Virus record (IMG/VR): IMGVR_UViG_3300013372_002913
Location: 1-22,308 of that record
Source of the DNA: a virus
DNA length: 22,308 bases
Strand: one strand, 5' to 3'
In this document: positions 502 to 13,535 of the stretch, one piece after another
Layout: each line of letters starts with the position of its first letter
Numbering within the stretch: the stretch's first letter is position 1
The notes under the pieces: generated by a model
What the model saw: the letters and a program-made list of their open reading frames with translations, nothing else
Told to the model about the DNA's origin: nothing
Database searches by the model: none
Program-made: the position numbers and the translations under genes

Positions 502-1172
502 ACTTAGAAAATTTTGTTTGGGAACCAAAATGTTATGATGGTTTCAAAGAAACTGTTGAAAGAGAAATTTTCATAGATAAAATTTACGAAAGATTTGTTC
601 AAGTAGAAGAAAGAGACGTAGTATTTGATATCGGAGCAAGTTTGGGCCCATTCACATACTCTATTTTAGATAAAAATCCATCACAAGTTTTCTCATTTGA
701 ACCAAGTTATGAGGAATTTAAAACGCTAGTCCTTAATACAAGACACGGAAATGTTACTCATATAAACAAAGGTATTGGTAATACAGTAGGTGAGTTTGAG
801 TTTGATACTGTGTTTGACGTATCGGGCGGTCATAAGCTATATTCGACAACTTTTAACAAAGTAATAAATGATTATAATATTAAAAAAATTGATTTTTTAA
901 AAACTGATTGTGAAAGTGGCGAATATGATATTTTTACCTTGGAAAATTTGTTTTGGATAAAAAACAATGTTAAAAAAATTTCAGGAGAGTGGCATTTAAG
1001 TACACCCGAATTGAAAGAAAAATTTAGATTATTTAGAGACGTTTATTTACGAGTATTTCCAAATTTTAAAATATTTTCTTTTGATGGTGTCGATATAACT
1101 TGGTCAATATGGAATGAAGACTTCATCCCATATTACAAAGAAGTCATGATATACATTGATAATAGAGATTAG
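498..1172 (+). CDS. FkbM-family SAM-dependent methyltransferase
   Basis: This 224-residue protein has the class I methyltransferase signature VFDIGASLGPF (about residues 42-52), an acidic ribose-binding glutamate in FSFEPS (E68), and IDFLKTDCESGEYDIF (131-146), the hallmark of the FkbM family (usually xDxIKxDxEGxE). FkbM enzymes O-methylate sugars or polyketides, and the family is common in phage and bacterial surface-glycan loci. The start ATG overlaps the stop of the upstream heptosyltransferase-like gene by four bases, which suggests the two act on the same product. Downstream it converges with the minus-strand SGNH gene: the two stop codons interlock within 1169-1172 and no hairpin terminator is visible. 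The exact substrate cannot be read from sequence. Confidence 0.85.
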   Translation: MNLENFVWEPKCYDGFKETVEREIFIDKIYERFVQVEERDVVFDIGASLGPFTYSILDKNPSQVFSFEPSYEEFKTLVLNTRHGNVTHINKGIGNTVGEFEFDTVFDVSGGHKLYSTTFNKVINDYNIKKIDFLKTDCESGEYDIFTLENLFWIKNNVKKISGEWHLSTPELKEKFRLFRDVYLRVFPNFKIFSFDGVDITWSIWNEDFIPYYKEVMIYIDNRD

Positions 1173-1954
1173 ATTAAACTACTTGGTAAGTAACCTCTAA
1201 AATTGGTACGAATATGATTCAATAATGTATTAGCATAAGTTTTGTTATGAATAGGCCCTGTGTGAATATCATCTACGGCACGATCCAAAAAATTATCATA
1301 TAATCCATCAAACCTATTGAATTCTTCATATTTAGGAGGGATTCCGAACCATCCATTCCACAACCAATTACATTTTTTTGACTCCAAAAAATATTTGATT
1401 AAAAGATGATTCTTATACCAATTCATAAAATCTTCATAATCATTTTGTATTACAGTTAAATTATTTTGTAATTCCCGACCGTCTTCAGTCTCCTTAGTAT
1501 ATCCCCATTGACAATGAGGTATAAATGGTTCAATTCCTCCATCTTTGGTATAGAGTTCTCTTCTCTGAGGTGAAGTATACATAATTAAAACTAAATCAGG
1601 TTTTATTAAGTTATAATAAGTTATTAGGCACCTTGTAATAAAATCATTACTTCTACCTCCCATACCAAAGTTATGGTCAACTCCATTTGTAATTAATTTA
1701 GAAAATTGTGCAGACCATGTTTCATCATTATTAACTCCAACACCTTCAGTATTAGAGTCTCCAATAGACATTATCTTAAATCCTTCCTTGTGAATTGAGT
1801 CTCCCCTAAATCCTATTTCATTATAGGTGTAAATACATTTTCCTGTATTATCACTACCAGATGTTGTATAGAAAGAATTTTTTCTTTTTGAAATCCCCCA
1901 CCTATAACTTGATATTTCAAAATTTTCAGGTGTCCAATATTTTAATGAGGTCAT
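1169..1954 (-). CDS. SGNH/GDSL-hydrolase-like protein
   Basis: This 261-residue protein carries SGNH block I in IMSIGDSNTEGVGV (nucleophile Ser67), a block II/III-like GMGGRSND with Asn103, and a C-terminal DDIH (Asp228 to His231) matching the catalytic DxxH. These enzymes usually remove or transfer acyl groups on sugars. In a glycan-modification array an acetyl-transfer or deacetylation role is plausible but not shown. No signal peptide is visible. The ATG is preceded by AAATTAAT rather than a purine-rich Shine-Dalgarno sequence. It is the last gene of the long minus-strand array, and its stop codon overlaps that of the convergent FkbM gene. It is one of three SGNH-type proteins in the window and is the longest of them. 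Confidence 0.7.
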   Translation of the reverse strand: MTSLKYWTPENFEISSYRWGISKRKNSFYTTSGSDNTGKCIYTYNEIGFRGDSIHKEGFKIMSIGDSNTEGVGVNNDETWSAQFSKLITNGVDHNFGMGGRSNDFITRCLITYYNLIKPDLVLIMYTSPQRRELYTKDGGIEPFIPHCQWGYTKETEDGRELQNNLTVIQNDYEDFMNWYKNHLLIKYFLESKKCNWLWNGWFGIPPKYEEFNRFDGLYDNFLDRAVDDIHTGPIHNKTYANTLLNHIRTNFRGYLPSSLI

Positions 1955-1970: not shown

Positions 1971-2447
1971 TTAATTTACAATTCTTAACCTATTCGACGA
2001 ATTTACATCAAAAATATCTTCATAATAAATAATATTGGTATTTATCATTTTAGATAGTTCCAATAACTTTTTGTCGAATTTTTTAATTAATTCAATATTA
2101 TACTTAATATTTGGGGTATTAACCCACACATAATGGCTATCAAAATTTTTAAAATGATTGGCGTAAGATAAACTTTCCGCGCAAGCAATTAAATCTTTTC
2201 TAGATAATAAAATCACGTCATCAAAAAATTTAACAAAATCTAAATAAAATGGTATTTCCCTATGGTTTATATGAGTTTTAACACATATATTATTTGTAAA
2301 TTCCCAATCAAATTTTTTATATTTTTCTATATTATTATTAACTTCATTAAATGGTTCACTAATTGAATTCAACCCTCTTTCAGTTGATATTTGTTTTAAC
2401 AAGGAAGTTGAACCAGTTCTAGGTAGAGTAATTAATAAAATTTTCAT
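1971..2447 (-). CDS. Short sulfotransferase-like P-loop protein
   Basis: This 158-residue protein begins with a beta strand and the 5'-phosphosulfate loop LPRTGSTSL (residues 8-16). It also has LSRKDLIACAESL (81-93), whose Arg83 and Ser92 match the 3'-phosphate-binding Arg/Ser pair of PAPS sulfotransferases. Known family members move sulfate from PAPS to a hydroxyl or amine of sugars or proteins. The protein is shorter than usual (about 250 or more residues): it ends soon after IIYYEDIFD and lacks the usual C-terminal PAPS loop, so it may be a minimal phage form or a truncated one. No frame-shifted continuation was obvious in the 16 bases before the next gene. The start overlaps the stop of the upstream radical-SAM gene as TAATG. 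Confidence 0.65.
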   Translation of the reverse strand: MKILLITLPRTGSTSLLKQISTERGLNSISEPFNEVNNNIEKYKKFDWEFTNNICVKTHINHREIPFYLDFVKFFDDVILLSRKDLIACAESLSYANHFKNFDSHYVWVNTPNIKYNIELIKKFDKKLLELSKMINTNIIYYEDIFDVNSSNRLRIVN

Positions 2448-3544
2448 TATATTAAAGTTTTAACAATAAATTCTTGTAGATTACTCCAAGTATGATTATT
2501 TGGTAAAAAAGAATTAACTTCTTTAACAAATTCGTTGTATTCCGAATGAGACTCATTCCAAATTTGTTCTGATAAAAAATCCTCATCAGTAAATGTCCCC
2601 CAATTAGTTATTTTACCAAAAAATACATTTACCTTCTTACCAAAAATAGAATACATTAAATCATAAAATAACTTCATTTCTTTATAGTTTTTTTGTTGAA
2701 CCACAAATGAGGTTTTTATGCTACTTAAAGTTGGTATTGTGGAGATAAATTTTAAGTTATCTAACAATACATCCCAATTACCATTTATTCTTGTTTTTGT
2801 TTCATAAGTCTCTTTAGTTCCAGCGTCAACACTAATTTCACAACTTTTGACATATGGATGTACGTTTGGCATTGATTCCCACATTTCTTTGTTCCAACGT
2901 GTCGCATTAGTATGTAAGTGAATTGATTTTAAATTTGGCCATTTAGATTTATTAAAATTTCTTAAAAAATCTCTAAAGCCAACTGACACGAATGGGTCTC
3001 CACTACCCGTTATATATAGTGTATTCACCTCATTCCCATATGAGTCTTCAATATCTTGTATGTCTTGTTTTACTTTTTTTATTTTATTACTGTCCGCAAT
3101 AATCATACTTAATCGACATGAAGGACATTCAAGATTGCAACTCCTGTCCATTGAAAATTGAACTACCTGTGGTGAAGTTAATTTTCCTTCCTTATGTTTT
3201 TTTATTTTTAGTTCTAAATTAGAACTTAATTTATCTTTGTGGTAAAGAGGATGGACTCTACCAACATCACCAAAGGTTTTCAATTGATGTATAAATGGAC
3301 AATGGTTATCATCACAATATCTATATGATCCATCTAATATACTATCTCGAATATCATTGGCCTCTGTTGAATTCCATGCGTCATATGGTTTAGTATCTTG
3401 AGGTAAAAATTTAGTTAACCATGACGCACAACATAAAAATCTTTGATGGTCATGAATTTCTAATGAAGTAAACGGAACCGCGCAAATGTAATTTTTTAAA
3501 TCTATCTTAGACTCCACATTAATAATATTTTCATTTATTACCAT
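2447..3544 (-). CDS. Radical SAM protein with N-terminal cysteine-rich (SPASM/twitch-like) region
   Basis: This is a 365-residue protein. The radical-SAM Fe4S4 motif is CNLECPSC (Cys136, 140, 143), followed by GSGDPF (180-185, the GGEP equivalent) and HLHTNAT (209-215), all standard for the TIM-barrel core. Unusually, a second cysteine group lies before the core: Cys21, Cys38, Cys39, Cys77 and Cys82 in a context (ICAVPF...FLCC...W...CP) that resembles the SPASM/twitch region normally found after the core. This suggests auxiliary cluster binding and a peptide or sugar substrate. The C-terminus ends TLI, with its stop sharing one base with the next start. The gene follows the oxygenase/glycosyltransferase cassette. 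The reaction cannot be assigned; sugar or protein side-chain modification is most likely given the neighbours. Confidence 0.8.
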   Translation of the reverse strand: MVINENIINVESKIDLKNYICAVPFTSLEIHDHQRFLCCASWLTKFLPQDTKPYDAWNSTEANDIRDSILDGSYRYCDDNHCPFIHQLKTFGDVGRVHPLYHKDKLSSNLELKIKKHKEGKLTSPQVVQFSMDRSCNLECPSCRLSMIIADSNKIKKVKQDIQDIEDSYGNEVNTLYITGSGDPFVSVGFRDFLRNFNKSKWPNLKSIHLHTNATRWNKEMWESMPNVHPYVKSCEISVDAGTKETYETKTRINGNWDVLLDNLKFISTIPTLSSIKTSFVVQQKNYKEMKLFYDLMYSIFGKKVNVFFGKITNWGTFTDEDFLSEQIWNESHSEYNEFVKEVNSFLPNNHTWSNLQEFIVKTLI

Positions 3545-3562: not shown

Positions 3563-3667
3563 TTAAATTAAAGTATTTTTCAATAAAACACTTTTTTTCT
3601 CTGTTTTTTGTATCCACTCATAATATTTTTTAGAGGTAGTATTTTCTTCTTTTGTAAAATTTATCAT
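3563..3667 (-). pseudogene. 34-codon remnant of the glycosyltransferase C-terminus
   Basis: A short open frame starts with ATG at 3667, inside the stop (ATGA) of the oxygenase gene 3664-4197, and stops at 3563. Its last 26 residues, beginning NTTSKKYYEWIQKTEKK, match the last 26 residues of the full glycosyltransferase 4243-5184 (NTVSKKYYEWVQKTEKK...) at 22 positions. The first eight residues do not match. The catalytic DxD region is absent, so it cannot be a glycosyltransferase. The simplest reading is tandem duplication of an oxygenase-glycosyltransferase unit followed by an in-frame deletion of most of the second glycosyltransferase, leaving its tail. It still has a start, a stop and coupling to the upstream gene, so expression as a 34-residue peptide cannot be excluded. 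Confidence 0.75.
3581..3662. repeat. Direct repeat copy 1 (glycosyltransferase 3' end)
   Basis: This stretch aligns without gaps to 4261-4342, 680 bases away in the same orientation. In the first 60 bases I count seven differences, and identity falls in the last 20. It contains the coding DNA of the 34-codon remnant. Confidence 0.85.
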
Positions 3668-4197
3668 ATCAAAGATTTATTTAATCCAAAATTATCAATT
3701 GATAACCAAAAAACCATACTATATCTAATACCTTCTTGGATTTTGTTAGCGCAGTGTTCTATGGATGAATCGAACATTATAACATTTCCAATTTCTTTTG
3801 AAGATACTAGTGTTTCACCATTTTGAAAAATACATAATTCACCACCATCATATTCGGTTTTATCTGAAAGTTGTATTATTAAGGTTTTATATCTGTTTGA
3901 ATATATACCTCCAGAATCGTTATGTTTTTTGAACTCCTGATTTATATCGTACTTCAAAATTATAAAAAAATCTGGTAAACTTTTTATTCCAAATTCTTTT
4001 ACTTTTTCTAATATTATATCTGATAAATTAGTATCCAACTCCATACGTACTTCACACGAAGTTCTATATTCCGATATAGTAACAAGTTTATTATTATCTA
4101 CTATCGTACTACGTTTGAATAATTTATCATCAGGTAATGATTTAAAATAATCACACTCATATTTATTAAATAATTTTTTTTGAATAACGGTCTTCAT
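3664..4197 (-). CDS. 2OG-Fe(II) oxygenase, prolyl-4-hydroxylase-like (copy B)
   Basis: This is a 177-residue double-stranded beta-helix oxygenase. The iron ligands are visible as KHND (His92, Asp94) and EHCANKI (His148), and the 2-oxoglutarate-binding arginine is Arg158 in GIRYSMVFWL. This matches the P4H/2OG-FeII_Oxy family, which hydroxylates unactivated carbons, often of proline or other protein side chains. It shares RYKTLIIQLS, the GG-x-L turn, the GN-x(2)-FDS stretch and GIRYS-x-VFWL with the oxygenase at 5181-5657, so the two are recent paralogues. It sits between the intact glycosyltransferase and a broken copy of that gene's tail, inside the apparent duplication. The leader is AT-rich with no Shine-Dalgarno sequence. 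The substrate is unknown; a phage or host protein or a glycan are all possible. Confidence 0.88.
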   Translation of the reverse strand: MKTVIQKKLFNKYECDYFKSLPDDKLFKRSTIVDNNKLVTISEYRTSCEVRMELDTNLSDIILEKVKEFGIKSLPDFFIILKYDINQEFKKHNDSGGIYSNRYKTLIIQLSDKTEYDGGELCIFQNGETLVSSKEIGNVIMFDSSIEHCANKIQEGIRYSMVFWLSIDNFGLNKSLI

Positions 4198-4242: not shown

Positions 4243-5184
4243 TCATAATAAACTATTTTTTAATAAAACACTTTTCTTTTCTGTTTTTTGTACCCACTCA
4301 TAATATTTTTTAGATACAGTATTTTCTTTTATGTTTAAATTTAAGTTGTATGGTAACTTTTTTGTATATTTTGATTTATGAAAAAAATTTATATGAGAAT
4401 CAGTTATACCTGCATTATGCATTATATTAAATTCAAAATATTTAGATTCTTCGTGTGGAGCCCAACTGAATTCTAATTCTTTATGATATTGTGTTTCATA
4501 TCCTAACTTCCAAGCATTCCAAAGTACAGCCCACATATCCGCACACCATATTTGTAAAGGCAGATACTCTTTATTTTTAATTTTCTTTTTACGATTTAAA
4601 TGAGTGATTTGTTTAAATAATCGTTCACTATCTTTCTCCACATTTTCCCAATAAATTTCATCAATTCCTTTCATTACATATTGAGCCCCTATTGAATTAT
4701 TATTATTATCGATTATTAGTTTAGGATTAATATCTACAATAGATACCATTTCGTTAAATATATCTTGTCCTTTTGTTATTATATAATCATACGAAATATA
4801 TGATTTGGTATTTGAACCATACCATACATTATCGTTTTCAAATTGTTCCCAATTTATAGGTTTAGTAAAAATAATATCACAATCGTGGTAAAATATAGTT
4901 TCATTTTTTAAATACGGATGTAATTTAAAATGTTGCTTTAATATATTAGGCCTTATAGATGATTTATAATGTTTGGTTATTCTAGTATCATCATAAAAGA
5001 AAAATCTAGCATCATATCCATTTGATAATTTTTTCCATACTTCTGGTATTTTATTATTTTCTTTTGTACAAACTATATCAACATATTTAAGGTCCACTCC
5101 CATTTCCATAAAATTATTAAGCATGACTTCCACTTGCCATGCAAAATATAAATTAGAAGTTTGAGCAGAAATGAATCGTATCAT
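4243..5184 (-). CDS. GT-A glycosyltransferase, hydroxyproline/serine glycosyltransferase-like
   Basis: This 313-residue protein has an N-terminal RFISAQTSNLYFAWQVEVML, a central metal-binding DxD in FYHDCDIIF (Asp101-Asp103), and late histidines (His256 in IMHNAGI, His269 in FFHKSKY) suited to metal or donor binding. The overall pattern resembles the plant and algal peptidyl-serine galactosyltransferase/hydroxyproline arabinosyltransferase type of GT-A enzyme; that placement is from recall and is tentative. It lies between two prolyl-4-hydroxylase-like oxygenases, so hydroxylation followed by glycosylation of the same site is an attractive inference. The start overlaps the upstream oxygenase stop (ATGA at 5181-5184). 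The last 26 codons are duplicated at 3563-3667. I see no membrane segment or signal peptide, so it should act in the cytoplasm. Confidence 0.75.
   Translation of the reverse strand: MIRFISAQTSNLYFAWQVEVMLNNFMEMGVDLKYVDIVCTKENNKIPEVWKKLSNGYDARFFFYDDTRITKHYKSSIRPNILKQHFKLHPYLKNETIFYHDCDIIFTKPINWEQFENDNVWYGSNTKSYISYDYIITKGQDIFNEMVSIVDINPKLIIDNNNNSIGAQYVMKGIDEIYWENVEKDSERLFKQITHLNRKKKIKNKEYLPLQIWCADMWAVLWNAWKLGYETQYHKELEFSWAPHEESKYFEFNIMHNAGITDSHINFFHKSKYTKKLPYNLNLNIKENTVSKKYYEWVQKTEKKSVLLKNSLL
4261..4342. repeat. Direct repeat copy 2 (inside the intact glycosyltransferase gene)
   Basis: This is the partner of 3581-3662 and encodes the C-terminal part of the intact glycosyltransferase. The two copies bracket the oxygenase gene 3664-4197, so recombination between them would delete or amplify that oxygenase. 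Confidence 0.85.
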
Positions 5185-5666: not shown

Positions 5667-6695
5667 TTATTCAAAAATAGCAAAAACACATTCTCTACAA
5701 ATAGTTTGGTATGATTCTTCTATTTTTTTTATATGTTCATCATTTCCCCAAAAATCTTTTAATTCTTGAGTTTTAAAATCACCAAACTGAATTTCCATAT
5801 CATAATCATTGCAGCAAAGAAATACCGTACCTGTGGCATTTATATGAATCCATCCGAACGGTCTGCCACCAACTTCTTTACCATTACCACATCCTATAAC
5901 TTTCTTATTTTTATTTCCGTTTTGAAGATTTCTTTTTATTGAACCTTTATTAGTCATTACATTATCTAATAATCCTGCTCTATCAACTAAATATGGAACA
6001 CCAAATATTTGAACTCCCTCAAATAGTTCTTTTGCCTTTTTAACCTGAGTCATCAATTCACCATCTATTGGGTCTAAATTCATATCAGATGGAAAATCTG
6101 GCCCTTTATCTAACCATCCACCCATACCGGTGAATGAATATTTAGTTATACCATTTACTTGAATTGAGAATGATTTATTTGTAACCATATCAGGTAGGGT
6201 TTCCATAGTATAGTTAATGTTGGATATTAACTTATCAAATTGTTTTATGTTTATTCCACTTCGTAAACTCCAAACTTCAGGTTCAAATGCTGGAATATTC
6301 AAACATATACCAGAGATAACACCTTTATATTTTTGAATCAAATCAACTTTATCAGGTGTCAATGGAATTCCATTTGATAAAATCATAAAATTTAGTTCAT
6401 ACTCTTGACAGATTTTTAATAGTTCTTCAAAATGTGGATATAATAGTATTTCATTATAATGAGCAGTATAAAACCCTTGAAACTTTTTATCAACTAATCC
6501 GTTTTCTTTATCTCTCTCATGAATTAAATTCTTAATAATTTTTCTTAGAAGTTCAATGCTCATAATTTCCTTACCATGAACGGGATTTCCTTTATACTTG
6601 ACAGGACAAAACCAACATCTAGCATTACAAATACCAAATGGGTCTAATTGTAATTCTTTTATTTTGTATACTTCAAATTGTTGTTTTATGTTCAT
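5667..6695 (-). CDS. Radical SAM protein with C-terminal SPASM domain
   Basis: This 342-residue protein has the radical-SAM motif CNARCWFC (Cys23, 27, 30) close to the N-terminus and an LSNG motif (MILSNGIPL) in the barrel. A C-terminal SPASM region holds Cys269, Cys294/Cys295, Cys333 and Cys336 in the contexts GCGNG, FLCCND and ICRECV, enough for at least one auxiliary Fe-S cluster. SPASM proteins usually modify peptides, but some act on sugars or small molecules. With oxygenases and a glycosyltransferase on either side, protein or glycan modification is the best guess. It differs from the other radical-SAM protein (2447-3544), whose extra cysteines precede the core. The stop lies 9 bases before the next start. 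Confidence 0.87.
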   Translation of the reverse strand: MNIKQQFEVYKIKELQLDPFGICNARCWFCPVKYKGNPVHGKEIMSIELLRKIIKNLIHERDKENGLVDKKFQGFYTAHYNEILLYPHFEELLKICQEYELNFMILSNGIPLTPDKVDLIQKYKGVISGICLNIPAFEPEVWSLRSGINIKQFDKLISNINYTMETLPDMVTNKSFSIQVNGITKYSFTGMGGWLDKGPDFPSDMNLDPIDGELMTQVKKAKELFEGVQIFGVPYLVDRAGLLDNVMTNKGSIKRNLQNGNKNKKVIGCGNGKEVGGRPFGWIHINATGTVFLCCNDYDMEIQFGDFKTQELKDFWGNDEHIKKIEESYQTICRECVFAIFE

Positions 6696-6717: not shown

Positions 6718-7188
6718 TTATATTAATTTTTTAATTCGCTCATATCCTAAATACATTCCAAGTATCCAATCAGATATTAATGGTTCTCGTTCGTGATATA
6801 TTTTACTTCCTTCAAATATTACACCATCTCCTTGTTCTAAAATTACTTCAATTTTTTCACCATCAATATAGATATATAAAGGATTTACATTTATATCGGA
6901 TTGTTTGATTGAGACACACATAACCAATTCAGTTACATCTTTATGTTTAGTTAGTGTTTGTCCTTTAAAGGATTTTCTAGTATACCCTAAAACTGTATTT
7001 AATTTTGTTGAATAAAAATCTTCAACAAGGGGTTTAAACTTTTCACAAAATTTGTCAGATATTTCCCAACTAAATAATATATCGGATTCTTTGACTTGAT
7101 GGTCTTTTTCTTTTTCCACTTTTTCAAATTCAGAAAAGATAAATTCACATTCATATGAAGATAAAATATTTTTAATTATTTTATACAT
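6718..7188 (-). CDS. 2OG-Fe(II) oxygenase-like protein (KHKD type)
   Basis: This 156-residue protein has an N-terminal SSYECEFIFSEFEK helix like the other small oxygenases here. The iron site is TKHKD (His82, Asp84) plus YHEREPL (His132). The stretch EVILEQGDGVIFEGSKIYHERE resembles the phage oxygenase subgroup whose core ends pGD-xx-iYrG-x-e-xx-HwRe, and the C-terminal LGMYLGYE strand also fits that group. The usual GxRY arginine is not present in its normal place; Arg134, two residues after the distal histidine, may take over 2-oxoglutarate binding. It probably hydroxylates a macromolecular substrate. The leader is AT-rich, and the gene ends AAATTAATATAA, almost the same string as several start sites in the window. 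Confidence 0.78.
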   Translation of the reverse strand: MYKIIKNILSSYECEFIFSEFEKVEKEKDHQVKESDILFSWEISDKFCEKFKPLVEDFYSTKLNTVLGYTRKSFKGQTLTKHKDVTELVMCVSIKQSDINVNPLYIYIDGEKIEVILEQGDGVIFEGSKIYHEREPLISDWILGMYLGYERIKKLI

Positions 7189-7195
7189 AATTGTA

Positions 7196-7735
7196 TTATA
7201 TTATTTTTTTTAGATTTTTATCTTTTTCAATTAACCACACTATTAGAACCTCACGTGTTCCTTTCTCTACTTTAGTAACTTCGTGATAAGTTTTCTGGCC
7301 ATCAAATATAATATAATCACCGGAATTGTTTAATTCAATATCAATTCCATTTAAAAAAAGTAGTCCTCCTATTTCAGCTGGATTAATTAAAAAAATTAAA
7401 GTGATGGCATTTAATTTGTTATTCGAGTTTACCAATCTTTCATCTATATGGTTTTCTAAAAAATCACCCTCTTCATATTTTCCAATATGGATACTTGTAA
7501 TATCACTTACTGAACACTCAGTTTTTTCTTTGATAAAATTAGTCAATTCATCATTTTTTAAAATAGGAAGATACACATATGTCGCAGACCCATTAGAATA
7601 TCTTTCTTTTGTATTTCTACCAGCAGGATATTTCCATATAATTAGATTATTTTTATGTAGGGTATATACATCATTTATATACTTTTTTAAAAATAATAAT
7701 TCGGAATCAGTTATTGTATTTTTTTTATTTATCAT
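7196..7735 (-). CDS. 2OG-Fe(II) oxygenase, prolyl-4-hydroxylase-like
   Basis: This 179-residue protein has a complete double-stranded beta-helix signature: NHID (His96, Asp98), then IGGLLFLNG, GDYIIFDGQKTYHEVTKV (distal His151), and Arg161 in GTREVLIVWL for 2-oxoglutarate. Such enzymes hydroxylate proline or other residues. Sequence outside the core differs clearly from the oxygenases at 5181 and 3664, so it is an older relative or came separately. It is packed 10 bases after the SGNH gene and 8 bases before the oxygenase at 6718-7188. The N-terminus (MINKKNTITDSELLFLKKY) is lysine-rich. No export signal is seen. Confidence 0.85.
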   Translation of the reverse strand: MINKKNTITDSELLFLKKYINDVYTLHKNNLIIWKYPAGRNTKERYSNGSATYVYLPILKNDELTNFIKEKTECSVSDITSIHIGKYEEGDFLENHIDERLVNSNNKLNAITLIFLINPAEIGGLLFLNGIDIELNNSGDYIIFDGQKTYHEVTKVEKGTREVLIVWLIEKDKNLKKII

Positions 7736-7744
7736 TTTAGAAAA

Positions 7745-8413
7745 TTAAATAAGTTTATTTACATTTACTTCAAATAAATTGTTATAGATATAATTTGCAA
7801 ACTGAATATGCCCGATAAAACTAAAATGAGAATCATTAAATTCATAATTACTATGCTGGAATATTGTATGTATTGATTTTATTTCTGAATCATCAACATC
7901 CCAAATATAAATTTTATCAGTTTTATTTAATAATTGTTTTTTTAAAAAATTAAATCTTTTATCTTGTCTTTGTTTATATAAATTACTATTAGAAAAGTAA
8001 ATCGCAAAATTAATAGCAGTTTCTATCTCTGATTTTTGTTTATTATTTTTTGAAAAAAGATATGCTTTCGATCCATCGATAAATTGTTTATGTTGTGTTT
8101 TAAAATTATTTTCATCTGACCAAGGGATATCAAATCTTTCGTAATAAGTTTTTTGAATAATAACAACATCGTTTTGCCTTACAAAATCAAATGAATCTAT
8201 TACACTATCCAATATCATATCATTAGAACAACCACTCTTTCCTAAATTTTTGATTTCATATCCTAATATGTTGCCCAACAAGTTTGGCCAAATATCATAC
8301 GAATCTTGATAGTATTTTTTATAGTATAAATCACCACCAGAGTGAATACCTTGGTCTATTCTACAGCCATCTCCAAATGTAAATGAATCGCCAAATGTCC
8401 AAACGGTATTCAT
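7745..8413 (-). CDS. SGNH/GDSL-hydrolase-like protein
   Basis: This 222-residue protein starts VWTFGDSFTFGDG, block I of SGNH hydrolases with Ser10 as nucleophile, followed by NLGKSGCSNDMI (a block II glycine and Asn64) and a C-terminal FNDSHFSFIGHIQFANYI around His196. The usual DxxH spacing is changed: the residue three before His196 is Asn193, and Asp194 is only two before. Catalysis may therefore use a Ser-His dyad or Asp194. The S-x(2)-GH-x(3)-A pattern after the histidine is typical of the short phage and cyanobacterial SGNH proteins found in glycan clusters. The start overlaps the preceding stop (AAATTAATATGA). Likely sugar O-acyl esterase or transferase chemistry, not proven. Confidence 0.75.
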   Translation of the reverse strand: MNTVWTFGDSFTFGDGCRIDQGIHSGGDLYYKKYYQDSYDIWPNLLGNILGYEIKNLGKSGCSNDMILDSVIDSFDFVRQNDVVIIQKTYYERFDIPWSDENNFKTQHKQFIDGSKAYLFSKNNKQKSEIETAINFAIYFSNSNLYKQRQDKRFNFLKKQLLNKTDKIYIWDVDDSEIKSIHTIFQHSNYEFNDSHFSFIGHIQFANYIYNNLFEVNVNKLI

Positions 8414-8421
8414 ATTAATTT
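8410..8421 (-). promoter_or_regulatory. AT-rich translation start element AAATTAATATGA
   Basis: This is the same 12 bases as at 1951-1962. Here it also forms the ATA-TGA end of the upstream gene, so the preceding protein ends KLI and translation is likely coupled. Confidence 0.5.
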
Positions 8422-8868
8422 ATTAGGAATAATTGTATTAAAATGAGCAAATAACAAATAACAATCGTTTTCTTCAATTTCTTTTATTCTTTGTGTGGAA
8501 TCTAAATTATGAATTACCCCAAATCCTTTGATTATATTGGTAAGATGATTATTAAAATAATAGTTACCACCTTTAAAATTATCATTTAGAAAACAAACCG
8601 TAGTAAATGTAATATCACTATTTTTAAATCGTTGTACGTGGGTTGGTAAACAATTTGTAGGCTTTAATTTTATTACTTTGGTAATTGGATAGTTTAAAAA
8701 ACTAATTTTTTTTTCTTTTTCTGAAATTTTTTTAATTTTGGAAGAAATCCAATCTTCATAAAAAAAAGTTTGATAATACTTAAAATTTTCATTACAATAT
8801 TCCCATTCTAAATTAGAAACTAAATTTATAATATTATCACACTCTTCTTCATTAAAAAAATGTATCAT
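8410..8868 (-). CDS. Degenerate 2OG-oxygenase-fold protein (metal site lost)
   Basis: I place the start at the ATG at 8868 (152 residues); an in-frame TTG at 8877 would add three residues but is less likely. The N-terminus MIHFFNEEECDNIINLV and the core VCFLNDNFKGGNYYFNN clearly belong to the small P4H-like oxygenases, and CLNDDYVGGDF in the paralogue at 13023 is nearly parallel. All key positions seem lost, however. HxD has become His77-Val-Gln79, the distal histidine aligns with Gln126 in DSTQRIKEI, and the 2-oxoglutarate arginine aligns with Cys136 in NDCYLLF. The fold is kept and the frame is open, so it is more likely a non-catalytic partner or binding protein than a decaying gene. The alignment is by eye. 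Confidence 0.7.
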   Translation of the reverse strand: MIHFFNEEECDNIINLVSNLEWEYCNENFKYYQTFFYEDWISSKIKKISEKEKKISFLNYPITKVIKLKPTNCLPTHVQRFKNSDITFTTVCFLNDNFKGGNYYFNNHLTNIIKGFGVIHNLDSTQRIKEIEENDCYLLFAHFNTIIPNKLI

Positions 8869-8873
8869 TACTA

Positions 8874-9473
8874 TCAAATAGGATTAGTTGTATAATTAAC
8901 TTGATTTTCAACATCTAAGCATAAATTACCAGCATAAACTATTCTATCTATTTCAGAATTAGGTGTTGGTACTGCGGTATGTCTAATATCTGCTGGGAAA
9001 ATAAAAAAATCACCTTCTTGAGGTAAAAATTTATGTCTAACTTTATCCTCAGTTTCAAATATTATATGACCTTCGTCTCCTTGTATATCAGTTGGAGTTT
9101 GTAAATAATAAGTAAAAGTATAATCAGTTTTTATTGAAGTACTTCCGGGTGGGTGTACTAATAGATGTTGATGCATCCATTCTAAATTAAAACCTTTTGT
9201 TTGAGTATAAACCCAATAATGTTCTGCATAATTAATAAAGCTTCTATTAGATATTTCTTCTATATATTTTTTTACTTTATCATTAATATAATTAAAACAT
9301 TTTGATTTTATTTCCATCCAAATAGTGTTTTGTTTAACTTCCATCTTTGAAAGTAAACTCATTTCATTATTTAGTTTTACAAATTTCAAACATTCTTGTT
9401 TTATATTTTGAAAATTATCATCGTATGATTTGTATATTGTATATTTTTTCGATAGTTTTATATTAGATTTCAC
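8874..9473 (-). CDS. Putative 2OG-Fe(II) oxygenase/cupin (HQH type)
   Basis: This 199-residue protein looks like the PF13759-type putative 2OG oxygenases. It has WMHQHLLVHPPGS (candidate metal ligands His101/His103), TYYLQTP, then FLPQEGDFFIFPADIRHTAVP (distal His165) and Arg177 in IDRIVYAGN for the cosubstrate. The second ligand is a histidine rather than the usual Asp/Glu, which would be a cupin-like three-histidine site if His101, His103 and His165 all bind. The start appears to be GTG at 9473, overlapping the upstream TGA as GTGA. The first in-frame ATG is at codon 38, too far into the conserved region. The target is unknown. Confidence 0.75.
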   Translation of the reverse strand: MKSNIKLSKKYTIYKSYDDNFQNIKQECLKFVKLNNEMSLLSKMEVKQNTIWMEIKSKCFNYINDKVKKYIEEISNRSFINYAEHYWVYTQTKGFNLEWMHQHLLVHPPGSTSIKTDYTFTYYLQTPTDIQGDEGHIIFETEDKVRHKFLPQEGDFFIFPADIRHTAVPTPNSEIDRIVYAGNLCLDVENQVNYTTNPI

Positions 9474-9904
9474 AACAACTTTTTGTTTATTTTTTCGTAT
9501 CGTTTGTAATTACTTAAAAGTTCTTCTCCTTTTCTAATAAATCTAATAGATTTTATAGTATCTCTGTCCACATTAGATTTTTTTTCATAGTACCCACTAT
9601 TAATAAAATAGTAAGGATTCGTGTATATCCAATGACATCCATTTGTAAGTTTGACATAAATATTAGTATCGTTTGGAAACTCATTCGTATATTCAAACAT
9701 ATCCAAAATATGAGTTTTTAATTCAGAATCTAATTCATTTAGTTCTACTTGTGATATTGGATAAAATCCAGTTTCACCTTTCCATTCTTCAAATAAAAAA
9801 GTATCATTAGGAATATCTTTTAAAGAAAATACTCCTATTCCTGAAATTGGACTTGGTTTTAATCTAACAAAAACATGATTCTTAACGTAACTAAATGCAT
9901 CCAT
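9470..9904 (-). CDS. SET-domain protein
   Basis: This 144-residue protein shows the SET pattern from end to end: VRLKPSPISGIGVFSLKDI (residues 13-31), the pseudoknot-like YFINSGYYEKKSNVD (99-113), and IRFIRKGEELLSNY (120-133) with the closing GEEL-x-x-Y. SET proteins transfer methyl from SAM to protein lysines; short phage and bacterial versions often have unknown targets. The classic NHS/NHxCxPN motif is reduced to INSGYYEKKSN, so activity is uncertain. The gene begins within the stop of a 50-codon ORF (TAATG) and ends within the GTG of the next oxygenase. It therefore belongs to the same translational chain as the Hint gene upstream and the oxygenases downstream. Confidence 0.75.
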   Translation of the reverse strand: MDAFSYVKNHVFVRLKPSPISGIGVFSLKDIPNDTFLFEEWKGETGFYPISQVELNELDSELKTHILDMFEYTNEFPNDTNIYVKLTNGCHWIYTNPYYFINSGYYEKKSNVDRDTIKSIRFIRKGEELLSNYKRYEKINKKLL

Positions 9905-10056
9905 TACAAATGTTTATTCATGAATAATTCAAAAAATTTACCAATTACAGTTTGAACTCTTTGTTTTTCATCAATTGTTAATTGAGATGTATTTCTATTT
10001 TTAACATCTTGTAATGATTTCTTTTTATATAATGGTGGGTGATTAGATATATCCAT
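9904..10056 (-). CDS. 50-residue protein of unknown function
   Basis: A short ORF fills the gap between the Hint-protein gene and the SET gene. It starts ATG at 10056, 12 bases after the Hint stop, and its TAA shares a base with the next ATG (TAATG at 9906-9902). The product starts MDISNHPPLYKKKSLQDVKN, continues with TIDEKQRVQTVIGKFFELF and ends NKHL. It is hydrophilic at the N-terminus, with a likely amphipathic helix in the second half. I recognise no family. Tight junctions on both sides and a residue composition like that of the neighbours support a real gene. Confidence 0.7.
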   Translation of the reverse strand: MDISNHPPLYKKKSLQDVKNRNTSQLTIDEKQRVQTVIGKFFELFMNKHL

Positions 10057-10067
10057 GATTTATTGAT

Positions 10068-12401
10068 TTATTTGTTATGAACTAATATTTGATTTGCGTA
10101 AAAGTTTCTATTATCTTCTACTGAAATAATATATGTTTGTGTATTAATTCTATCTAATTCTACAATTGATATAATTTCCACAGTTTTTTTATTTGATAAG
10201 TTAACAAAATCTCCAACTTGTATTTTACCAACTTGACTCGGTAAATCATATCTTTCATTTGTCCAATTTGGATGATAAGATGCAAGATATAACCCATTTA
10301 CATAATATGGGTGGTCAAAAGTTGAAGTTATCTTAATTCCATTTGATAAAGTATACTCTACCAAATCATCATGAATCGGAGAGTTTAATTTAATTACTTT
10401 TTTAGATTCAATAATTCCTGTCTCTTCATTATAAGATAATACTTCTTCACCGATAACAACATCTTCAATATTTTTTTCAATCCCATCTGCCATTAAAACT
10501 TGTGTACCTGCAATGAAACAAAGAGGAAGAACTGTAGTTGTGGTTGTTCCTCTATTATGAGCCAAAACTCCATTTACAAAATAATTGTGAAACGTATCAA
10601 TTTCAGATAAATTATAAACTACATTTTCTTCATCTAACAGTGTTATGTTTACTAATTCACTTTCTTGATTATTAAATTTTACAATATCATTTAATTCGAT
10701 TTTTTGAATTGGACTTTCAAGTTTATACAAATTGTTAGATAATTCATATGAATATGAACTCCATCCTTTATCAACTACATATATTGGGTGGTCTAAGGTT
10801 GCCTTCAATTTAACACCATTCAAAAATTCATATTCCACTACTTTATCAACTTTTCTTGAAAATACTTTTAATACTTTACTTGGAACAAGTTGATTGGTTT
10901 TAAAGTCAAATGACACCACATATTCCCCTTCTTTCACGTCTTCAATATTTTTAGTGTTTCCATTTTCTAAAAGAATTTGTGTACCGGCGACAAAACAAGG
11001 TGAGTTGTGAGAAACAACAGAATTAATTGGAGTTGAACCATTAATAATATAAGTATCAGAATCTTCAACATCTAATTCTACATAACTCAAATTATTATCA
11101 GAAGACACATAAAAATTTAATTCATCGATATCAATTAGGTTCCCGTCTAAATTAAATAAGTAATCAGTTTCATGATTAATCGATGAGATAGGTTTAAATG
11201 AACTTTTATTTTCTTCTGGATTAAAAACAATATATCTTTTAGCTACACCTGAAAAAAATGAATCACTGTCAACTTTTAATTCAAACATACTATTATATCT
11301 CAAGTTTTCAATATTTTTATACACAACAACTGAAGACGTTAAAGAAGAACCACTTGGAAACTCGTTTCCTTCAAAACTCCACAAAAATGGAGAAGGGTTT
11401 GATTCAGTTTCGTCGTAACGAGATAAATAATATGATTTTACAGATTCACCGACTTCATATTCACCAATTGGTTTCCACACATCATCACTACTTAATACTT
11501 GATGTGTTGATAATATTCCATTTGAATCACCTTTTATATAATTTGTGGTAAATTCATAGTAGTGATAATCAGGAATTTTATTAGTGTATTGATTTAAATT
11601 TACCTCAGAAGATAAATCAGTTGGTAAATCAAATATTGAACTAATCTTATAACTATTTAATGGAATTACTTCTAAATCAGGGCCATAAACTATACCAAAA
11701 AATCTGGCAGAGGTTATATGATTATTTTCATCTAAACTAGATGAGTGAAAATGATATTGTTCGATTAACTTATCTTCGGAAACATTTTCACTTATAAATT
11801 TATCCCATCTATCTTCAATAGATTCATTTTCAAGAGTTGAACCAATCTTAAAAAAATCAATAGGATTATGATATTCGTTTATATCCTTTATAGTTGCATC
11901 TGGTAAATTATTTTGATTCAACTCTTTGGTAAGTGTATTAAACTCACCGATTGATGATGAATGATAATATGAAACGCAATAATCGGTTATTGAATTTTGA
12001 GTAAATAAATTAAATACATTCAATCTATTCTTACAATATTCACTATCAAATAAGGCAGATTCATCATAAGCTAATCTAAAAATAAATTTATTACTTGAAT
12101 CTTGTATAGATATTGGATATATAGAATTAGAATCTTCCTCATGTAAATTTATTGATGTTACACTTGGCACATTCAATGATACTGATGATGAAAACTCATT
12201 AACAAAATTTATATGAACTCCATATTTATATATAATGTCTAGTTCAGAAATATTATTATCGACTAAAACTTGATTAATACCACTAAAATCAAAATTAACC
12301 AATTCTTGGTCAAGAATTCCAGTATCTGTATTTAATTCTAATAATCTTAAATTACCATTTGAGTCTTTAACAAAATCAGCGGAAAATAATGTTCCTTTCA
12401 T
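10068..12401 (-). CDS. Hint-domain protein with two tandem C-terminal Hint (intein-like) domains
   Basis: This is a 777-residue protein. Residues 1-27 (FSADFVKDSNG..LLELNTDTG) and patches such as FIFRLAYDESALFDSEYCKNR resemble ATP-grasp strands, but no full ATP-grasp domain is recognisable. Residues to about 460 are beta-rich, Ser/Asn-rich and virion-like. Hint 1 spans Cys469-Asn616: CFVAGTQILLENG, TLDH (TxxH block B), NYFVNGVLAHN. A linker, Arg617-Gly followed by five threonines and VLPL, leads to Hint 2, Cys628-Asn776: CFIAGTQVLMADG, TFDH, NFYANQILVHN, then a single Lys and the stop. Both domains keep the nucleophilic Cys1, block B Thr/His and the terminal His-Asn, so self-cleavage looks possible. 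The +1 residues (Arg, Lys) are not Cys/Ser/Thr, so standard splicing is unlikely and a bacterial-intein-like B-type behaviour is expected. It is the only gene preceded by a clear 82-base gap. Confidence 0.88.
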   Translation of the reverse strand: MKGTLFSADFVKDSNGNLRLLELNTDTGILDQELVNFDFSGINQVLVDNNISELDIIYKYGVHINFVNEFSSSVSLNVPSVTSINLHEEDSNSIYPISIQDSSNKFIFRLAYDESALFDSEYCKNRLNVFNLFTQNSITDYCVSYYHSSSIGEFNTLTKELNQNNLPDATIKDINEYHNPIDFFKIGSTLENESIEDRWDKFISENVSEDKLIEQYHFHSSSLDENNHITSARFFGIVYGPDLEVIPLNSYKISSIFDLPTDLSSEVNLNQYTNKIPDYHYYEFTTNYIKGDSNGILSTHQVLSSDDVWKPIGEYEVGESVKSYYLSRYDETESNPSPFLWSFEGNEFPSGSSLTSSVVVYKNIENLRYNSMFELKVDSDSFFSGVAKRYIVFNPEENKSSFKPISSINHETDYLFNLDGNLIDIDELNFYVSSDNNLSYVELDVEDSDTYIINGSTPINSVVSHNSPCFVAGTQILLENGNTKNIEDVKEGEYVVSFDFKTNQLVPSKVLKVFSRKVDKVVEYEFLNGVKLKATLDHPIYVVDKGWSSYSYELSNNLYKLESPIQKIELNDIVKFNNQESELVNITLLDEENVVYNLSEIDTFHNYFVNGVLAHNRGTTTTTVLPLCFIAGTQVLMADGIEKNIEDVVIGEEVLSYNEETGIIESKKVIKLNSPIHDDLVEYTLSNGIKITSTFDHPYYVNGLYLASYHPNWTNERYDLPSQVGKIQVGDFVNLSNKKTVEIISIVELDRINTQTYIISVEDNRNFYANQILVHNK

Positions 12402-12483
12402 AATTTTTTTAGTTATGTATTTAATATCTTATAAATATCAAATTTTATTTTATTTTATAACCTCTGTAATCAAAATTCAGATT
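12402..12483. other. 82-base non-coding gap upstream of the Hint gene
   Basis: This is the longest stretch without a gene in the minus-strand array. It is almost entirely A/T, with no convincing hairpin terminator and no Shine-Dalgarno sequence. It is the most likely place for an internal promoter for the Hint gene, but I found no match to a known promoter consensus that I would trust. Confidence 0.35.
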
Positions 12484-13026
12484 TTATAAAAGAGATTTAG
12501 GGTTTGAAATAGTTGTTCTTGAAATACAAATATGTGTAAGTTCTAAGCTTTGTGGTAAATTTAGTTGAAATTCAATTATTTCATATACTTCAGAAAAATT
12601 AATTTTATTAAATGGAACTCTTCTATTATGTTCTAAAGTATTCGGGTATAAATTAATCATTCTCACTTTTTTATCAAGATTCGAATTAATTAACTCGAGT
12701 GAAGATTTTTGTAAACTTAATTTATTTTCTCTATAATCATCAAAACTACCATTATTGAAGATGGCCGAAGTTAGAACATTAAAAATAGTTTTATCCTGAT
12801 ATTTCCACAAGTCGAAAAGTTCTTCAAATATTTTTTGTTGGTAAATCGGATAATATGTATTATTAATAAACACATCTAAATCTACAACATCTGTTAAAAT
12901 TTTTTTGTAATTTTTCAAGTCATATCCATTGCTTCTTGAAAATCCAATAACTTCATGGTTTTTTTTTAAAAAATCGTAAAGTCCTTTACCCAAATAATCA
13001 CTGTGTCCCGTTATTCCTATCTTCAT
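12484..13026 (-). CDS. Short SDR/NAD(P)-dependent epimerase-like protein
   Basis: This 180-residue Rossmann-fold protein begins KIGITGHSDYLGKGL, a variant of the SDR TGxxxxLG nucleotide loop. It has GFSRSNGYDL (residues 28-37), which may select NADP through the Arg, then VFINN (52-56), a catalytic-type serine in VLTSAIF (Ser87) and Y-x(3)-K in DYRENK (Tyr98, Lys102). It is shorter than full SDRs (about 250 residues) and stops soon after a substrate-side region, like the compact SDR proteins seen in marine phages. It probably reduces or epimerises a sugar nucleotide or a small carbonyl substrate. It overlaps the oxygenase gene upstream (ATGA) and is the last gene before the gap that precedes the Hint gene. 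Confidence 0.72.
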   Translation of the reverse strand: MKIGITGHSDYLGKGLYDFLKKNHEVIGFSRSNGYDLKNYKKILTDVVDLDVFINNTYYPIYQQKIFEELFDLWKYQDKTIFNVLTSAIFNNGSFDDYRENKLSLQKSSLELINSNLDKKVRMINLYPNTLEHNRRVPFNKINFSEVYEIIEFQLNLPQSLELTHICISRTTISNPKSLL

Positions 13027-13535
13027 ATTAAACTAATACCACGTTTTATGTTTTCTTTATATAAAAATATTATTAACGAATACCGAACACCACTTTCAAT
13101 TTTTGTGACCTCATGTTCTCTCGTATTTTTAAAAGAATAAATAGTTCCAGCTTTTTTGGGTATAATTTGTTTTGGTTCATGCAAAATAAAATCCCCTCCC
13201 ACATAGTCATCATTCAAACAAACTCCAACATTCAATGTTTGATTAGGATAGTATATGTCACTATGTCTTTCAAATTCATTTCCGGCTATGTATTTGTGTA
13301 AATGTATTACTTCAAAGGGTTTGGTTATTTCGATATTTTGGTCTATTAACAAATACTCAGTAATTTTATCAAAAATCCATTTTACCGACTCATTTCGATA
13401 AATATTATAATAAGTATACGATATTTTTTCCCTCGGCCTTTCAACGGTTTTACTATTCACATCTCTGTGAGTACCCTCAATTTCCAAGGTTAAATTTATT
13501 ATCTTATTACACTCTTCTTTAGAAAAACAAACCAT
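13023..13535 (-). CDS. 2OG-Fe(II) oxygenase, prolyl-4-hydroxylase-like
   Basis: This 170-residue protein starts MVCFSKEECNKIINL like the other small P4H-type proteins. The catalytic set is complete: FERHSD (His91, Asp93), GVCLNDDYVGGDFILHEP, TREHEVTKI (His141), and Arg151 in GVRYSLIIFL for 2-oxoglutarate. The HLHKYIAGNEFERHSD stretch is the common h-x-Y-x-x-G-x-x-x-x-H-x-D pattern. It is the best reference for the degenerate homologue at 8410-8868, which lines up with its C-terminal core. It lies between a 38-residue basic peptide gene (4-base gap) and the SDR gene (ATGA overlap), so it is co-transcribed with the carbamoyltransferase. It could hydroxylate a sugar, amino acid or protein. Confidence 0.88.
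   Translation of the reverse strand: MVCFSKEECNKIINLTLEIEGTHRDVNSKTVERPREKISYTYYNIYRNESVKWIFDKITEYLLIDQNIEITKPFEVIHLHKYIAGNEFERHSDIYYPNQTLNVGVCLNDDYVGGDFILHEPKQIIPKKAGTIYSFKNTREHEVTKIESGVRYSLIIFLYKENIKRGISLI

Follow-up and report, generated by a model that had tools for sequence, protein, structure and literature searches.

Two tandem Hint domains at the C-terminus of a phage protein

What might a phage protein do that carries two apparently complete self-processing Hint (intein-like) domains in series and ends almost immediately after the second? This question is raised by a 22-kb virus record (IMG/VR record IMGVR_UViG_3300013372_002913, 22,308 nucleotides; this whole analyzed stretch is hereafter called the window), in which a single ORF (12401..10068, minus strand; all features given below lie on this strand) encodes a protein of 777 residues, here termed the Hint-array protein. 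Its translation contains canonical Hint 1 (C469-N616, 148 residues; 10554..10997), with the TxxH block T535-L-D-H538 and the terminal pair H615-N616, and canonical Hint 2 (C628-N776, 149 residues; 10074..10520), with T694-F-D-H697 and H775-N776. An 11-residue linker with five threonines (R617-GTTTTTVLP-L627; 10521..10553) separates the two domains, and Hint 2 is followed by a single residue, K777, and the stop codon (10068..10073); the same C-terminus, VHNK, is found in 27 of 49 family proteins. A sequence-only reading of this DNA had described the two domains with their Cys1, TxxH and His-Asn residues, the linker, the one-residue tail and the end of Hint 2 at the stop codon, and all of these coordinates and residues were confirmed.

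Pfam searches with the 777-residue protein gave matches to Intein_splicing (2.3e-17), Hint (4e-14), and PT-HINT (4.6e-10), each far beyond its own cut-off. Hint 1 and Hint 2 share 38% identity over 149 residues. When an AlphaFold model of the complete protein was compared with known structures using Foldseek, the two top matches were BIL2 of Tetrahymena thermophila BUBL1 (2.7e-12) and the BIL domain of C. thermocellum (1.2e-9), followed in the same listing by inteins and Hedgehog; a profile built from 17 family Hints again retrieved the same two BIL domains as its top PDB matches. The Pfam scores, the mutual identity and the Foldseek results exclude a chance origin of the two-Hint observation. 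In the alignment of these 17 canonical family Hints, C1, T67, H70, H147, and N148 are invariant.

In 62 of 72 family cases, Lys or Arg follows the terminal His-Asn at +1 (R617 and K777 in the window), so that classical splicing is not expected and cleavage by the window Hints is plausibly predicted instead, which supports what the sequence-only reading had expected from the non-nucleophilic Arg and Lys. In 26 of 44 family members, the window protein among them, the residue just ahead of Cys1 in the first Hint is Pro. A proline at this position is unfavorable for the N-S acyl shift of inteins, and N-cleavage may therefore be slow or suppressed, and thioester formation disfavored, at the first Hint. 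As a whole, the earlier observation was correct yet incomplete, because the protein contains a third, degenerate Hint, a 50-residue ORF lies downstream of its gene, and a C-terminal tail is common to neighboring proteins.

A side observation concerns the Hint fold itself. The phage Hint profile (alignment A5), when compared with the PDB, matched the AXH domains of human ataxin-1 (E-value 1.8e-10) and HBP1 (3.7e-7) over Hint positions 2-107; these matches outscore many inteins, and the Pfam AXH model matched the window protein with 1.3e-24. These results suggest that AXH and Hint domains are homologous, and no paper stating this was found in the literature searched.

A degenerate third Hint and a conserved front domain

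Upstream of Hint 1 in the protein, a third Hint was identified at about residues 293-466 (11004..11525). It is degenerate: Cys1 is absent, the late blocks are kept, and the domain ends at Asn466, which is invariant in 22 proteins (alignment A2). In hhalign comparisons, the profile of this degenerate family matched Hint 1 with an E-value of 7e-6 and the last Hint with 1e-7, and the homologous region of the relative L003 matched PT-HINT when searched alone (E-value 1.9e-4).

The remaining N-terminal part (residues 1-290; 11532..12401) forms a conserved front domain, for which we obtained no accepted Pfam match, nothing consistent in PHROGs and no significant Foldseek match among viral models. 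Nine residues (D9, E22, N24, K59, R109, D113, E114, K172, and K185) are invariant among 27 diverse members, and these invariant polar residues form an enzyme-like set. Three weak but concordant lines of homology suggest that the domain is probably a divergent, permuted ATP-grasp domain resembling GSP_synth and YgiC, and not a member of GSP_synth. First, YgiC, YjfC, and YgiC-ADP appeared at ranks 2, 4, and 5 of a Foldseek search, with E-values of about 0.05-0.1 that are not significant and TM-scores of 0.29-0.33 for the YgiC/YjfC matches (the front model has a pLDDT of 76.8 and its first residues are poor). Second, when PF03738 was searched over ten large contigs, its single match was exactly the front-domain ORF of contig G006; the best E-value, 0.0023, comes from a one-genome search and is 0.055 in Pfam, so that the curated cut-off for GSP_synth membership was not reached. 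Third, the front family aligned with GSP_synth in hhalign with an E-value of 3.9e-4 (probability 36%; reversed controls, E-value 0.57) at a D...E-x-N-x-D-T motif. D9, E22, N24, and K172 of the front domain are invariant and may correspond to the metal-binding D...E-x-N and the ATP-binding Lys of permuted ATP-grasp enzymes, and the alignment to GSP_synth is uncertain beyond the first motif; in our reading of it, the front domain has neither a Gly-rich loop nor the Arg that precedes the motif in E. coli Gss.

Distribution of the family and exchange of Hint cassettes

When viral contigs were searched with the front part, 34 and then 68 loci were obtained; the two sets overlap, and we retained 50 distinct proteins. 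Cellular genomes and prophages (two scans, 84,980 genomes) yielded no relative of this part, nor did isolate phages by tblastn, and a profile search of Flavobacterium phage immuto, Microcystis phage Mel-JY01 and a 484-kb uncultured phage was also negative. A gene for a Gp23-type capsid protein is present in three of the largest contigs and in one 94-kb contig, and one of these capsid proteins shares 54% identity with its counterpart in Flavobacterium phage immuto; the carriers are thus most simply viewed, from their sequences, as large uncultivated aquatic phages of T4 type, perhaps infecting Bacteroidota. The arrangement had been called unusual for a phage-like protein, which holds in so far as no isolate phage record has the front part, and does not hold within the family itself, where it is typical.

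The number of canonical Hints per protein is zero in five members (L036, L037, L132, L137, and L141) and one truncated record, one in 15, two in 24, and three in five, two being the commonest. Since members with zero canonical Hints exist, the core function must be something other than cleavage by such Hints. Across 12 contigs, PT-HINT matches were found only in the Hint-array gene. The linkers between family Hints are 1-11 residues long and unrelated in sequence (R, RA, KF, RR, RQPVVS, KVTTTTS, and RGTTTTTVLPL). In seven relatives (L005, L006, L018, L019, L020, L029, and L038), the last Hint is of another type, which lacks a terminal His-Asn, ending in VVSGLGDN instead, and which in the L003/L038 protein matches Vint. 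The family thus consists of a conserved front and zero to three exchangeable intein-like domains.

Sequence comparisons indicate that the last Hint is a cassette that is swapped whole between phages. The window protein and its relative L033 share 43% amino acid identity in the front, 28% in the degenerate Hint, and 31% in the first Hint, as opposed to 82% in the last Hint, and a block of 87%-identical DNA (nucleotides 1881-2334 of the window gene and 1794-2247 of that of L033) spans exactly the region from the Cys1 codon to the stop. A similar pattern was observed for L029/L032 versus L006 (last Hint 86%, front 49%). Between L033 and L006, the flanks of the locus are 87% and 93% identical, and divergence starts inside the Hint gene and extends through several downstream genes; such closely similar flanks around a divergent middle mark the locus as a replaceable island. 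Separately, a terminase-like protein of another phage (L004:1047-3443) was seen to contain a Hint holding an out-of-frame HNH-like ORF, by eye an intein-like arrangement that appears unrelated to the Hint-array family.

An invariant small partner and a candidate late promoter

Immediately downstream of the Hint-array gene lies an ORF of 50 residues (MDISNHPPLYKKK...FFELFMNKHL; 9904..10056). Its counterparts (43-53 residues) were found in all 49 judgeable loci, including those with zero canonical Hints, beginning 1-99 nt past the Hint gene and mostly ending in KH[SLTM], with a pN/pS of 0.13 among closer members. Besides the Hint gene and this partner ORF, no member of the locus is invariant; the enzyme genes come and go.

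A T4-like TATAAATA promoter was not found; instead, the motif ATATTTAT lies 30-37 nt 5' of the start codon of the Hint gene (12431..12438). In its general form, ATATTTA[TA], it stands no more than 60 nt ahead of this gene in 41 of 49 loci, as compared with 44 of 666 other genes. In three contigs (G001, G004, and G005), ATATTTAT also precedes genes assigned by PHROGs as tail sheath, tail tube, tail fibre/baseplate, head-tail adaptor and baseplate wedge, as well as many unassigned genes; in the two loci examined (L040 and L042), the capsid gene does not have it immediately in front. Because the motif is common to the Hint gene and tail genes, it may represent a late promoter, and the Hint-array protein is probably made late in infection.

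A common C-terminal tail on unrelated neighboring enzymes

Of the 27 ORFs in the window, 11 have a polar residue and then two residues of Leu/Ile at their C-terminus. Downstream of the Hint gene, these include a SET-domain protein ending in KKLL (9470..9904; PF00856, 1.2e-5), a small protein ending in NKLI that is 2OG-oxygenase-like by eye and has no Pfam match (8410..8868), a GDSL-esterase-like protein also ending in NKLI (7745..8413) and a 2OG oxygenase-family protein ending in KKII (7196..7735), both assigned by cluster, the former with no Pfam match of its own, and an unassigned protein ending in KKLI (6718..7188). Farther away are a phrog_4417 protein ending in NSLL (4243..5184), a 2OG-Fe(II) oxygenase ending in KSLI (3664..4197; PF13640), a radical SAM protein ending in KTLI (2447..3544; PF04055 at 8.6e-6, below the curated cut-off; 16 of 19 relatives tagged) and a GDSL-like protein ending in SSLI (1169..1954; PF13472 at 0.001, below the curated cut-off). 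Upstream of the Hint gene are a protein of cluster c13 ending in KSLL, epimerase-like by eye (12484..13026), and a 2OG-Fe(II) oxygenase ending in ISLI (13023..13535; PF13640, 5.6e-9).

The pattern was picked after being noticed in the window, which is thus not independent evidence, and the tail K-[KSTN]-[LI]-[LI] was counted in six large related contigs. Up to 20 kb from the Hint gene, 40 of 205 genes carry it, versus 26 of 944 elsewhere (Fisher p 1e-15, an overstated value given the dependence among related contigs and among homologous genes; p is 0.03 or better in each contig separately). Usually, the Hint gene is followed by a run of such tailed, mutually unrelated modifying enzymes. Tailed families near the Hint gene are non-homologous (2OG oxygenases, SET, radical SAM, GDSL, and sulfotransferase-like proteins); in total, at least nine gene clusters without homology to each other carry the tail, and others, such as PhoH and Hsp20, do not (names partly by eye), and sugar-nucleotide genes are mostly without it. 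Its frequency reaches 54% among genes 2.2-4 kb downstream of the Hint gene and is 7% at 4-8 kb upstream. In contig G015, which has a Hint-type gene at 6124, the downstream stretch (L236) is tailed on most of a long gene run. Eight 2OG oxygenases of other phages that are homologous to that at 3664..4197 end differently, and a distant radical SAM homologue (L243), whose record has no platform gene, is also without the tail.

We considered whether the tail is a by-product of overlapping start codons, which was rejected since codons and stops vary and the majority of tagged genes end before the following gene begins. The idea that the tail strictly marks a platform gene nearby is weakened by tagged enzymes of the same families far away (6 of 23 distant members are tagged), and tailed GDSL-like, sulfotransferase-like and transketolase-like genes were seen far from the Hint gene in contig G004 (at about 217-248 kb and 3-5 kb). 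Judged from the sequences, the tail is likely a sorting or docking signal of one enzyme group and is treated here as a candidate for such a signal; it may mark an enzyme class rather than a partnership with the Hint-array protein, and it may matter more than the Hints. In four loci (L132, L137, L141, and L098), GroEL-like, GroES-like and Hsp20-like genes (by eye) lie together 2-4.5 kb upstream of the Hint gene.

A possible self-processing platform and alternative explanations

We tentatively propose that the Hint-array protein is a self-processing platform protein of T4-type phages that works with the 50-residue partner and the tailed enzymes, a reading whose chances we place somewhat below even and for which we infer the cleavage, docking and modification roles. 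The conserved front, composed of the ATP-grasp-like domain and the catalytically dead Hint, would bear zero to three A-type BIL Hints at its C-terminus. Each intact Hint would most likely break the bond after its own terminal Asn by Asn cyclization, with the penultimate His helping, and would form a thioester at its own Cys1; both cleavage after the terminal Asn and a possible thioester at Cys1 belong to known BIL chemistry (PMC7765530, PMC8616854). The net product would be the front part freed from its Hints, either by hydrolysis or, with less certainty, by transfer to an amine. The enzymes would dock by their K-[KSTN]-[LI]-[LI] tail on a common conserved receptor, for which the platform and the 50-residue protein are the candidates because they are the only invariant products of the locus, and the system would modify a component of the virion or of the cell surface. 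It is conceivable, if rather doubtful, that all of this amounts to a new late phage modification system, in which the platform and the 50-residue protein form a docking hub, enzymes are recruited by their tails, and the Hints release or transfer the product, thereby diversifying a virion or cell-surface component; the enzyme set would comprise hydroxylases, SET methyltransferases, radical SAM, sulfotransferase-like enzymes and esterases, unrelated to each other and changing between loci.

An alternative that we consider unlikely is that the locus is a cluster for modifying surface polysaccharides or small molecules, whose enzymes act on sugars and in which the Hint-array protein is an incidental late neighbor. 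Carbamoyltransferase, dTDP-sugar epimerase and transketolase-like proteins are encoded in the window, together with NAD-dependent epimerases recognized by eye, and clusters of carbamoyl transferases and 2OG oxygenases in cyanophages have been predicted to serve capsule decoration or a secondary metabolite (Iyer et al., PMC7824862). However, the Hint gene and its small partner alone are invariant in a locus whose enzymes vary, and the tailed enzymes are mainly downstream, the sugar-nucleotide genes being mostly untailed.

The self-processing platform could also work by conjugation, its Cys1 thioesters passing the front part to amines, e.g., those of the 50-residue partner or lysines of virion or host proteins. 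The closest solved relative of the phage Hints, BIL2, is reported to join its N-extein to the epsilon-amine of lysine with no need for ATP (PMC8616854), and Lys/Arg at +1 is strongly conserved. Attachment through an activated C-terminus, as suggested in the sequence-only reading, would have a precedent in BIL2. We nevertheless regard conjugation as improbable, because Arg at +1 is not an equivalent acyl acceptor, Pro stands at -1 of the first Hint, and no ubiquitin-like domain was recognized in the protein.

It is similarly improbable that the Hints are relics or selfish passengers, i.e., mini-intein-like cassettes hopping at the 3' end of one gene with no need for a phage function. Exchange boundaries that coincide exactly with the Hint, a number that varies from zero to three, and a dead degenerate copy are what such passengers could leave behind, but the catalytic residues are invariant among Hints that are just about 30-40% identical, the window Hints (148-149 residues) have no homing endonuclease domain, and insertion is always at the C-terminus of a single gene, the only one with PT-HINT matches in the 12 contigs.

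A device that frees a small peptide or toxin by tandem C-terminal cleavage, like polymorphic toxins with a pretoxin Hint, is brought to mind by the PT-HINT match and is highly improbable, being disfavored by sequences in which the last Hint, both here and in most relatives, has nothing but one lysine behind it and the inter-Hint linkers are short and not conserved. Cleavage after Hint 2 of the window protein would set free just this lysine. For the same reasons, toxin release was rejected, nothing being present after the last Hint, and the small peptide that the sequence-only reading had envisaged found no support, it being unlikely that the Thr5 linker is set free to act as a peptide, since neither its length nor its sequence is conserved. 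The two-step timer suggested there is not specially favored either, given members with zero, one, two and three canonical Hints.

Comparison with known systems

BUBL genes encode several BILs per polypeptide. BIL2 of Tetrahymena BUBL1 (PDB 6Y75, 6TMM) is the best profile and structure match of the phage Hints, which differ from it in being phage-borne and linked by so few residues; no match to the ubiquitin-like domains that flank BILs in BUBL proteins was obtained in Pfam scans of Hint-array proteins. A-type BIL domains were described by Amitai, Dassa and Pietrokovski in variable regions of non-conserved proteins (reviewed in PMC7765530). The phage Hints occur in a comparable setting, and both window Hints have Cys1, the TxxH of block B, the terminal His-Asn and the lack of Ser/Thr/Cys at +1 in common with them; in contrast, the phage protein has up to three canonical tandem copies and a dead copy at its C-terminus, exchange of whole cassettes and practically no C-extein. 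Classical splicing inteins have Cys/Ser/Thr at +1 and lie between two exteins of a host protein, whereas the window Hints have Arg or Lys at +1 and no C-extein beyond one residue. A sterol- or adduct-recognition region as in Hedgehog-type Hints is absent, only one residue following Hint 2, and polymorphic toxins with PT-HINT (PF07591) belong to the same Hint family, whereas the phage protein stops after K777 without a toxin domain.

The front domain may resemble Gss, YgiC, and YjfC (PF03738) in the D...E-x-N-x-D-T motif and its order relative to later lysines, with weak profile and fold similarity, and differs from them in starting at D...E-x-N, in lacking the Gly-rich loop and the Arg that Gss has ahead of this motif, and in remaining below all cut-offs. 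With regard to the neighborhood, the modification clusters of cyanophages (Iyer et al. 2021, PMC7824862) likewise combine 2OG oxygenases, carbamoyltransferases and small modifying enzymes in a T4-type phage, but were described without a Hint protein, a 50-residue partner or a common C-terminal tail. By their sequence, the phage Hints are ordinary A-type BIL domains; for their arrangement, the swapping of cassettes, the constant small partner and the group of tailed enzymes, no description was found in the literature searched, of which coverage was partial.

Implications

The chemistry of BIL and other Hint domains is known, and few biological jobs are known for them. Tandem, exchangeable Hints on a protein family that occurs across dozens of large aquatic phage contigs together with a fixed partner make such a role testable. 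If the common tail is a docking signal, it would be the phage equivalent of PTS1 and similar sorting tripeptides, and it would explain how fast-changing sets of phage enzymes stay one system.
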